64,000 nt of DNA from Vibrio sp. FE10. Its GTDB lineage: Bacteria; Pseudomonadota; Gammaproteobacteria; Enterobacterales; Vibrionaceae. How positions within the stretch are numbered: position 1 is the first letter of the stretch; every line of letters begins with the position of its first letter. The notes beneath the pieces were generated by a model. That model was not told the origin of the DNA. It ran no database searches and worked only from the letters and a program-made list of their open reading frames with translations. A program made the position numbers and the translations under genes. The stretch lies in contig NZ_AP028068.1 of assembly GCF_030297155.1 (NCBI RefSeq), positions 186,001-250,000 on the forward strand. Reading direction: 5' to 3'. This document shows positions 926 through 54,844 of this stretch, piece after piece.

Positions 926-959
926 GGTAAAAATAACCAATAGAACTCAAAATTCAGGC

Positions 960-993
960 AAAAAAAAACCAATCACAATAAAGGTGATTGGTT
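960..993 (-). terminator. intrinsic terminator of the qrr RNA
   Basis: AACCAATCAC (967-976) pairs perfectly with GTGATTGGTT (984-993) around a 7-nt loop. On the minus strand the stem is followed by a run of T (complement of the A-run 960-968). Confidence 0.85.
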
Positions 994-1068
994 ATATATT
1001 TTGTGTGAACAATATGGGTTCACTAACAACGTCAGTTGGCTAGGTGACCCTCGGCTTAAGAAGGGTCA
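961..1068 (-). ncRNA. qrr: Qrr quorum-regulatory small RNA
   Basis: Read on the minus strand, the RNA starts TGACCC at 1068 and folds a first hairpin (GGTGACCC with GGGTCACC, 1043-1070). It then carries the hallmark Qrr pairing stretch CTAGCCAACTGACGTTGTTA (about 1023-1042) and ends in a T-rich intrinsic terminator. In vibrios Qrr RNAs are made at low cell density under phospho-LuxO and sigma-54. With Hfq they pair with mRNAs such as luxR/hapR, luxO and aphA. The length of about 108 nt fits the family. Which paralogue this is cannot be told here. No luxO or luxU gene lies beside it, unlike the qrr1 locus of V. cholerae. Confidence 0.93.
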
Positions 1069-52609: not shown

Positions 52610-54379
52610 CTAATCAGCAGACCATACATTCTTGAAATCTGGCCATCCCCAGTTGGTGATGGCCACGTTTTTCAAAATGCCTTGGAAACGCACGGTCTGT
52701 AAGTGATGAAACATAGGCACTAGCCAATAATCAGAAATCAACGTGGACGCAACGGGCTCCAACTCTGCCAAGTAATTCGGCAGTTCAACGGAGGCTTTGT
52801 GATGATCTAAGCGCTGTTTAAGCCAATCACTGTTCATGTCGCCGAGTGCAGAGTGTAAAACAGGATCATTCATCAACCACGAAAACAACGAAGATGGCGC
52901 ATTGTCATCGAGATTGAGGTTACACAACACCAAGTCTTCTTTAAGGTCTCCGCTCTGAGAGAGTTGTGCCAGTTCTCGAAAGCTATAAGTATTCACCTCA
53001 ACTTCCACACCGTATCGTTTAAGGATGTCTGATACACAGATGGCACAACGATAGAGCGCGTAGTAGTTATATACTGCAATGCTCATTTTCTTGGGCAGTT
53101 GCGTCTCTTTCGAAGGGGTTCGATACAGTTTCTGCCAACTTGGCAGTATGTTCTGAGCCAGAGACACACTGAACAAACCTTGATTTTTTTCAAGTTGAGA
53201 CAATACCGCTTGTGGGTTAGCTATCCCTGCAATGTACTTACGCTGCTCATCCGTTAACAGACTAGCCGCTGAATTCTGATTGAATAGAATAAACAAACAC
53301 CCATCCTCAACTCGGCTACGAAGGCCATCCGTTTCAGCCGACACCAACTTCGCATCACTTTTTCCGAGTTGATGGAAACAAGACGAGTCTTCATAAGGCG
53401 ACACCTGCATTTGGCTGTCATCAAAACGAGCACTGCCCGTCATCGACTCTTCAAACTGCCAAATAGTCACCTCATCGGTCAAAGAACGACAACCATAATA
53501 GAGCTCAAATGCCGCGAGCTTGATGCGTTCATTATTAGTCTCAACCACTTTGAAAGGGCCGGTTCCAATCACAGCATGAGACACCGAATTTAATGGCGAT
53601 GGCTCACGCGTTACTTGCGCAGCAGGTTGAATCGAATACTTAACGCCAGCCAATAAGCCAGCGAAGCCGGTGTCTGCTTTGGTCAGTTGGAAGCTGATCC
53701 TTAATGGCTGATCACTGTAAACCGAAGCAACATGGGCTAACTCTGTCTGATAGAAAGGTAGCGGTTGTAAGGCGGTAAACAACGATACTAACTGCTTGGC
53801 ATCAACGGGTTGACCATCGTGGAAGGTTAGGCCTGGGCGCAAATAGAAAGTCCAAACCAACTTTTCAGCATCATATTCCCAATGGTGCGCCAGTTCAGGC
53901 TTCAACTTGCCCTTGCCATTACAAGTGACGAGACAACTGAATACTTGCCTGATCAAAAATCGTTCGCTACTGCGGTGAATATGATGTGGGAATAAGTCTT
54001 CAAACTTACGTTTATAGGTTAATTGCACGTGCAGCAACCCTTCACGCATCGTCGCGCCGGAGGTTTCTTGAAGGAGAGAGCCAAATACAGCGCGGTCATT
54101 GTCTAGAATTGAGAGTGCTTTTTCGTATTTGCCCTGCTCTATCAGTTTACTGGCAACATGTTGAGTCAATTCTTGATTGCTAAAGCGCAAGGTCAGATTA
54201 GAACGTTGATTCCTGCCGACTTTTGGCTCCCACACCACCCATTCAGCCTGATGCATTTTACCTAACAAGGTTCGTGCATGGCGCAAACTGGTAAACAGCT
54301 TGTCTGCAACCTCGGTTAAGGTAACCGAATGTGAGAGGTTAGGCTCGAACGAATCTAGCCTTGTGTAGTAACGCATCAT
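52610..54379 (-). CDS. sgrR: SgrR-family transcriptional regulator of sugar-phosphate stress
   Basis: About 589 aa from ATG 54379 (a TTG 15 bases upstream is in frame). The N-terminal winged helix (about 15-75, TEVADKLFTSLRHARTLLGKM then WEPKVGRNQRSNL) is followed by an SBP_bac_5 solute-binding-like domain (about 150-560). The domain order, the FYLRPGLTFHDG stretch and the W-GW-DFK-W ending match E. coli SgrR, which activates the sRNA gene sgrS on glucose-phosphate accumulation. The gene is divergent from the SgrS-like RNA at 54541-54783, the same layout as in E. coli. Confidence 0.92.
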   Translation of the reverse strand: MMRYYTRLDSFEPNLSHSVTLTEVADKLFTSLRHARTLLGKMHQAEWVVWEPKVGRNQRSNLTLRFSNQELTQHVASKLIEQGKYEKALSILDNDRAVFGSLLQETSGATMREGLLHVQLTYKRKFEDLFPHHIHRSSERFLIRQVFSCLVTCNGKGKLKPELAHHWEYDAEKLVWTFYLRPGLTFHDGQPVDAKQLVSLFTALQPLPFYQTELAHVASVYSDQPLRISFQLTKADTGFAGLLAGVKYSIQPAAQVTREPSPLNSVSHAVIGTGPFKVVETNNERIKLAAFELYYGCRSLTDEVTIWQFEESMTGSARFDDSQMQVSPYEDSSCFHQLGKSDAKLVSAETDGLRSRVEDGCLFILFNQNSAASLLTDEQRKYIAGIANPQAVLSQLEKNQGLFSVSLAQNILPSWQKLYRTPSKETQLPKKMSIAVYNYYALYRCAICVSDILKRYGVEVEVNTYSFRELAQLSQSGDLKEDLVLCNLNLDDNAPSSLFSWLMNDPVLHSALGDMNSDWLKQRLDHHKASVELPNYLAELEPVASTLISDYWLVPMFHHLQTVRFQGILKNVAITNWGWPDFKNVWSAD

Positions 54380-54507
54380 GTTTAGATCAGACAAATAATG
54401 AACCTTTTTAGAAACAACCCTTCCTGATTAAGCCCATTATAAAACACATCTGCCAAAAAGTAGCGCTAAAAGACGAAAACAGGAACAACTTAACAAAAAC
54501 CCATCTG

Positions 54508-54536
54508 TTTATTACTTCCTATTAAATGACGATAAT
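54508..54536 (+). promoter_or_regulatory. promoter of the SgrS-like RNA
   Basis: A -35-like TTTATT (54508-54513) and a -10 GATAAT (54531-54536) are separated by exactly 17 bases, giving a start at about 54541-54543. The weak -35 suits activation by SgrR. An inverted repeat AGGAAC-N5-GTTCCT (about 54550-54566) follows and could be a 5' hairpin of the RNA or a binding site. Confidence 0.5.
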
Positions 54537-54597
54537 TAATGGGTCAGCAAGGAACGATGAGTTCCTACCAAAGCCTAATACAAGAGAAGTAATCATC

Positions 54598-54696
54598 ATG
54601 AGAAAATACTATCTTAATAAGTTAAAAAGCACCTGTAGCAAGCTCGAAAGAGAAGCACTACGAACACTTATAGAGCTATGTAACTGGCGTTATTAG
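54598..54696 (+). CDS. SgrT-like small protein (candidate)
   Basis: A 32-codon ORF (MRKYYLNKLKSTCSKLERE..., ending ELCNWRY) inside the SgrS-like RNA, with AAGAGAAG about 10 bases upstream of the ATG. From memory, E. coli SgrT begins MRQFYQHYF and has an Arg/Leu-rich helix ending in a Trp-Asp sequence. The shared MR-(Q/K)-aromatic-Tyr start and the Leu-rich helix closing in Trp are suggestive but short. In E. coli, SgrT blocks the glucose transporter PtsG directly. Confidence 0.55.
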   Translation: MRKYYLNKLKSTCSKLEREALRTLIELCNWRY

Positions 54697-54718
54697 TACA
54701 CTTTTTAGCACCGAGTTA

Positions 54719-54783
54719 ACGCGAGTTGAGTACAACCTAATATGCTCCTACCCCCAATATGAGTTAGGTCTCAACTCGCTTTT
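54719..54783 (+). terminator. intrinsic terminator of the SgrS-like RNA
   Basis: GCGAGTTGAG (54721-54730) pairs perfectly with CTCAACTCGC (54770-54779), and ACCTAA with TTAGGT inside. Four T follow, and the apical loop is C-rich. Confidence 0.8.
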
Positions 54784-54844
54784 CCATTCCAAACACCCTC
54801 TCAACCCTGCTGTACCAATCGCTCACACACTCGATAAATTTCTG

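Follow-up and report, generated by a model that had tools for sequence, protein, structure and literature searches.

The 64,000-nucleotide stretch of Vibrio sp. FE10 DNA analyzed here (the window; contig NZ_AP028068.1, positions 186,001 to 250,000) probably encodes a dual-function RNA controlled by a divergent SgrR-family regulator, with a terminator loop that would lower sugar import by way of ptsG and a microprotein that would serve the same response. The predicted transcript is approximately 243 nt long (54541-54783, + strand, with predicted ends). By direct reading, a putative sigma-70-like promoter, TTTATT-N17-GATAAT (54508-54536, + strand), places the -35 element TTTATT at 54508-54513 and the -10 element GATAAT at 54531-54536, separated by a spacer of 17 nt. 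A 5' hairpin (AGGAACGATGAGTTCCT, 54550-54566) precedes an ORF encoding a 32-residue microprotein (MRKYYLNKLKSTCSKLEREALRTLIELCNWRY, 54598-54696, + strand). The terminator hairpin (54721-54783, + strand) is formed by pairing of GCGAGTTGAG (54721-54730) with CTCAACTCGC (54770-54779), followed by TTTT, and presents the apical loop ATGCTCCTACCCCC (54742-54755). These elements had all been described in the initial annotation and were present where it had placed them. The 243-nt unit folds at -57.1 kcal/mol (z -2.65), a value equalled by 1 of 200 dinucleotide shuffles. An Rfam scan of the unit returned nothing above the cut-off, the sole match being to a snoRNA at chance level (E 0.49); elsewhere in the window, a Qrr quorum-sensing RNA was detected at 959-1068 (- strand; Rfam RF00378, 113.4 bits). 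The observation of the unit is confirmed as real and not a chance arrangement. Its dual-function status combines a coding part, identified by a selection test, with base pairing predicted from structure and complementarity in a predicted transcript.

The gene divergent from the RNA (52610-54394, - strand) belongs to the SgrR family. Pfam detected SgrR_N (4.8e-30) and SBP_bac_5 domains at 104.6 and 90.7 bits, respectively, both exceeding their cut-offs, and the proposed divergence from an SgrR-type gene was thus borne out. The name sgrR, which the initial annotation had used, holds at the level of the family but not of orthology: another gene, G000:C2:1852380-1854056, is the one most similar to E. 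coli SgrR here (322 bits, 34% identity), with the window regulator second (200 bits, 29% identity). The NCBIfam model PRK13626 scored these two genes at 390 and 277 bits, both below its cut-off of 476. The window regulator is an SgrR-family paralogue of the gene most similar to E. coli SgrR. The same relationship was found wherever both gene types were seen (G000, which is this genome, G034, G089 and V. metoecus), the RNA-linked gene not being the one closest to E. coli SgrR. At E<=0.001, the search for SgrR-family genes matched 194 of 196 genomes, a count that includes distant solute-binding proteins.

A GGAA-N30-TTCC element (54482-54519) overlaps the RNA promoter, with its TTCC falling inside the promoter spacer. 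Elements of the form GGAA-N22-36-TTCC were present in 52 of 76 representative upstream regions, compared with 3.7 expected from mononucleotide shuffles, the motif having been spotted in the same sequences in which it was later counted. The spacing was exactly N30 in 38 of these 52 regions. We infer that the element may be a binding site through which the divergent regulator, a probable sensor of a sugar or a sugar phosphate, would activate the RNA promoter. At one locus, in V. hangzhouensis, there was neither loop nor microprotein, and an ORF of 463 residues, which presumably begins like a family 1 glycosidase, lay divergent from the regulator.

The hairpin is conserved beside SgrR-family genes. 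At a threshold of E<=0.001, the DNA of the unit had matches in 39 of 196 Vibrio genomes, of which the weakest spanned 24 bases. Upstream regions of SgrR-family genes were then compared in two sets of 80, one of which was the best 80 of 122 found; the sets share species and near-identical members, and their counts are therefore not independent. In the best-80-of-122 set, loop and ORF occurred together in 37 regions, while 19 had just the loop, 16 just the ORF and 8 neither; the corresponding numbers in the other set were 53, 12, 10 and 5. A strict core, GCTCC-N0-14-CCCCC, was found in 121 of the 160 regions of this redundant collection, whereas dinucleotide shuffles predict 0.4 and the opposite strand had it in 1 of 160; the loop motif had first been spotted in some of the same regions. 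Another count, of 66 out of 70, includes loop motifs of three loci (L077, L108 and L111) that were added by eye and that the strict counts exclude.

Alignment of 30 diverse hairpins demonstrated variation on both sides at 10 of 10 stem pairs, with 94.7% of cells paired, a figure that leans upward because the script used to cut the hairpins favors good stems. The invariance of the loop in this alignment is by construction, since the hairpins were chosen by the loop motif. The covariation score was reached by none of 500 shuffles, and sliding the partner strand by 1 to 3 columns reduced pairing to 22-56%. A covariance model trained on these hairpins, all of which came from sites upstream of SgrR-family genes, was searched against whole genomes and, under strict filters, matched 93 of 196 Vibrio genomes, with the window hairpin recovered at G000:C2:240719-240787 (E 9.7e-8). 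Among the 96 matches, 87 were divergent from a listed SgrR-family gene at a distance of 450 nt or less; at E<=3e-4, the proportion was 82 of 83, the exception (G195) lying 5.6 kb away. This exception and eight others (9 of 96) were more than 1 kb from any SgrR-family gene among the matches listed, and the eight, with E values from 7e-4 to 0.0095, are likely false when judged against those listed matches. Of the 124 genomes for which an SgrR-family match was listed, 39 had no model match beside it. Of the checks that had been suggested, the covariance search found the hairpin, and the comparison of upstream regions the loop and the ORF, conserved beside SgrR-family genes.

A second, weaker copy of the hairpin in this genome (G000:C1:3042324-3042389, E 0.0046; L131/L112) is flanked by another SgrR-family gene on one side and by a second glucose PTS gene on the other, and may be a separate RNA or a leader of that PTS gene. 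At G109:C2:1582405-1583739, and at the same place in G179, approximately 1.3 kb of inserted DNA, probably an insertion element, splits off the 3' part of the hairpin.

The 32-residue ORF is coding and under purifying selection. Among 39 full-length copies (11 distinct sequences, from fetched loci that in some cases share a genome), 12 synonymous and 8 nonsynonymous changes were found, compared with 59:229 possible (p 2.6e-4). In two further copies, apparently from one genome represented twice, a stop shortens the ORF to 16 residues. The family shares the motif YYxxRL...ER.AlLaLIqLCxW. A profile HMM seeded with 16 Vibrio peptides from SgrR-adjacent loci also detected ORFs in the equivalent position in Photobacterium, Aliivibrio sifiae, Moritella and Psychromonas, no seed sequence coming from these four genera, with a best reverse-strand match at E 2.2; relatives of the microprotein accompany an SgrR-family regulator in five genera. 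A database search recovered 59 relatives, the named ones being hypothetical proteins of Vibrio, Aliivibrio, Photobacterium and Moritella, and the V. metoecus peptide, used as a query, retrieved proteins carrying the database label V. cholerae, irrespective of genomic place. The model matched 27 of 345 genomes of the order, in 3 of 108 genera, a search of limited sensitivity given how short the model is.

Selection on the ORF would also be expected if the transcript were a plain small mRNA, with the microprotein as its conserved product and the hairpin as a terminator that plays no part in pairing. In several Photobacterium, Moritella and Vibrio loci, the ORF is indeed the first gene of an operon and the strict loop is absent. 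However, the loop also occurs without a matching ORF (in the 19 and 12 regions noted above), and the stem varies in sequence while the loop motif recurs across the 121 regions, which is more than a terminator alone needs. We therefore regard a plain small mRNA as unlikely, and favor a transcript that both encodes a peptide and pairs with target mRNAs.

The candidate target of this pairing is ptsG. In this genome, the gene named ptsG by NCBIfam carries AGGAGCAU at its ribosome-binding site and GGGGGU near -55, and the putative seed AUGCUCCU-ACCCCC (54742-54755, + strand) is their exact complement in the right order, with AUGCUCCU opposite AGGAGCAU and ACCCCC opposite GGGGGU. The background consisted of 351 genes that a crude script had predicted in 400 kb of chromosome I and in the window; among them, loop pairing at least as good as that of ptsG was found for 3 and AGGAGCAT at the ribosome-binding site for none. 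Among 10 PTS_EIIC genes, the best pairing level was reached by ptsG and treB only, in a tie, with several others at mid-rank. GGGG was present at the ribosome-binding site of 5 of these 10 genes compared with 8 of 351 background genes (p 6e-6), in a test chosen after the leaders had been inspected and with the starts of nagE and treB placed by eye. We propose that the loop would pair with the ribosome-binding site of ptsG, possibly also with the upstream G-run and perhaps with other PTS mRNAs bearing GGGG at that site, and that this pairing, which may use Hfq, would repress translation and reduce sugar import. The same transcript, if expressed as predicted, would yield the microprotein, which would act in the same response.

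The distribution of the ptsG sites is wider than that of the RNA. Both sites were present in 39 of 41 test leaders, some of them from genomes in which no loop was found, and in 13 of the 20 controls, genomes that lacked a close SgrR-family match, with relatedness uncontrolled in this comparison; no restriction of the sites to RNA-bearing genomes was thus found. A GGGGG run approximately 55 nt before ptsG, apparently within a hairpin (as in L217), was seen in 40 of the 41 Vibrio test genomes and in 17 of the 20 Vibrio controls. In V. cholerae, VcdR is described as repressing ptsG, treB, nagE and ptsHI through a seed of four C residues (PMC8672173), and VcdR alone could explain the conserved G-runs of ptsG. 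Compensatory change was absent in five Vibrio species, in which the loop reads UUAGCUCC or UUAACUCC and ptsG still carries AGGAGCAU. One genome (G153) looks compensatory, with loop UUAGCUCC and ptsG AGGAGCUU; it was not counted because those five species keep AGGAGCAU. In the second ptsG of this genome, neither site was found. The suggestion that the C-rich apical loop is the targeting sequence gained an exact complementarity to the ptsG leader, but one whose sites recur in the controls.

Complementarity to the ptsG translation initiation region is also a hallmark of SgrS, with the same reservation as to the control genomes, and a true SgrS/SgrT homologue diverged past recognition would share the layout seen here. 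The peptide begins MRxxY and ends in a Leu-rich segment with Trp, and hhalign aligned exactly that end with SgrT (14 columns, E 0.035). However, the probability in this single comparison was 1.5%, with power limited by a shallow SgrT alignment of 9 close sequences, which leaves room for a weak similarity, and the likeness to SgrT seen by eye thus received no backing from the profiles. The Rfam SgrS model (RF00534) matched neither the window nor 9 other Vibrio, Photobacterium and Moritella loci, and scored 228.8 bits on the E. coli locus used as a positive control. Similarly, the Pfam SgrT model (PF15894) had no match at E<=10 among 9 diverse microproteins, compared with 3.3e-13 for the E. coli SgrT control. 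The window regulator is, moreover, a paralogue of the gene most similar to E. coli SgrR. Common descent with SgrS/SgrT, as the initial annotation had implied, is accordingly not supported at the level of family membership and, as hidden homology, is judged quite improbable. Otherwise that interpretation is supported: the RNA is conserved, its microprotein ORF is under selection, an SgrR-family gene is divergent from it, and its C-rich apical loop is complementary to the ptsG leader.

The anatomy of a leader ORF followed by a terminator is also that of an attenuator, and the second copy of the hairpin in this genome precedes a PTS gene. A cis-acting leader of the downstream gene, here rimK, is nevertheless very unlikely. 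The downstream ORF varies, from rimK in this genome to an ORF of 202 residues starting MAIRNVVFDVGNVIVKW in V. metoecus and a VOC-like ORF in V. profundi and V. tapetis; the common neighbor is the divergent regulator, although the regions were selected by that gene.

The VOC-like neighbors point to a possible origin of the favored dual-function RNA. The microprotein ORF overlaps a following VOC-like ORF by 4 bases in 3 of 5 Photobacterium loci, in two Moritella loci and in three Vibrio loci (G073, G107 and G083), and the G073 ORF, the sole one scanned, is of the glyoxalase family. In Psychromonas ossibalaenae (L193:1753-2316, - strand), microprotein and glyoxalase-family protein are fused in one ORF of 187 residues, and the next gene is maltose acetyltransferase-like. 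A hairpin identified by eye separates the microprotein from the VOC-like ORF in V. profundi and V. tapetis; of the two, only V. profundi has the strict loop. These arrangements suggest, in a reading made without a tree, that the RNA may have arisen in a microprotein-VOC operon, and the glyoxalase-family (VOC) protein is a candidate partner of the microprotein in these relatives. A wider interpretation is advanced tentatively, as possible but somewhat short of probable. Vibrionaceae would have a second sugar-stress circuit, in addition to DsvR and VcdRP, made up of an RNA-linked SgrR paralogue and its own dual-function RNA; the RNA would have been born in an ancestral microprotein-glyoxalase-sugar acetyltransferase operon once its first gene came to be separated from the second by a terminator hairpin bearing an anti-PTS loop; and the microprotein, as the natural fusion suggests, would ancestrally have been a partner of the glyoxalase-family protein, in a family that extends to V. 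cholerae, reported to be without an SgrS homologue. Possible intermediates (operon, fusion, hairpin between microprotein and VOC gene, and RNA without ORF) are found in extant species, so that one could trace how a dual-function RNA is born and lost.

No description of the window RNA was found in the open-access literature searched. A 2025 paper (PMC12345230) reports that SgrS is so far unidentified in V. cholerae, and a 2026 preprint (PMC13060122) that V. cholerae lacks SgrS upstream of DsvR, an analogous system not being excluded. Like DsvR (VCA0578; PMC13060122), the window regulator is an SgrR-family regulator in Vibrio. In six Vibrio genomes, the nearest counterparts of E. coli SgrR (31-36% identical), taken as the DsvR type without comparison to the DsvR sequence itself, had neither hairpin core nor microprotein upstream at any of 6 loci.

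VcdRP, a dual-function RNA described in Vibrio, controls PTS genes (PMC8672173), and the RNA reported here resembles it in having an ORF, a C-run and PTS mRNA targets, tested for VcdR and predicted here. In contrast, the VcdRP peptide has 29 residues and binds citrate synthase, and VcdRP is repressed by CRP (PMC8672173), whereas the RNA in the window is linked to an SgrR-family gene at another locus and encodes another peptide. A unit resembling VcdRP by eye, with a terminator, CACCCC and a 28-codon ORF, lies upstream of pepD in this genome (L061, about 800-1020, - strand). That the window RNA is a paralogue or member of VcdRP, as C-run and PTS link had suggested, is rejected as extremely improbable on locus and peptide, since VcdRP occupies the interval from VC2278 to VC2279 (pepD) of chromosome I (PMC8672173, PMC3136459), whereas the window is on C2 and pepD of this genome on C1, the neighbors and peptides differ, and the ORF of the pepD-upstream unit looks unrelated.

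The closest functional parallel is with SgrS/SgrT and SgrR of enteric bacteria, to which the RNA and peptide are predicted to work alike, yet without membership in either family. As in that system, the RNA is divergent from an SgrR-family gene and its loop is complementary to the ribosome-binding site of ptsG; as described for SgrS (PMC4021124), a small ORF lies upstream of a base-pairing site near the 3' end, and the ORF is absent in some species. Unlike SgrS, whose seed lies upstream of the terminator (PMC4021124), the putative seed here is in the terminator loop; RNA and peptide match neither family, the regulator is a paralogue, and the next gene is rimK rather than setA. These loci provide a candidate SgrS-like system in a marine bacterial group. 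If this reading is true, the same layout of SgrR-family gene, dual-function RNA and ptsG was either reached through an unrelated RNA and peptide or retained through complete sequence turnover.
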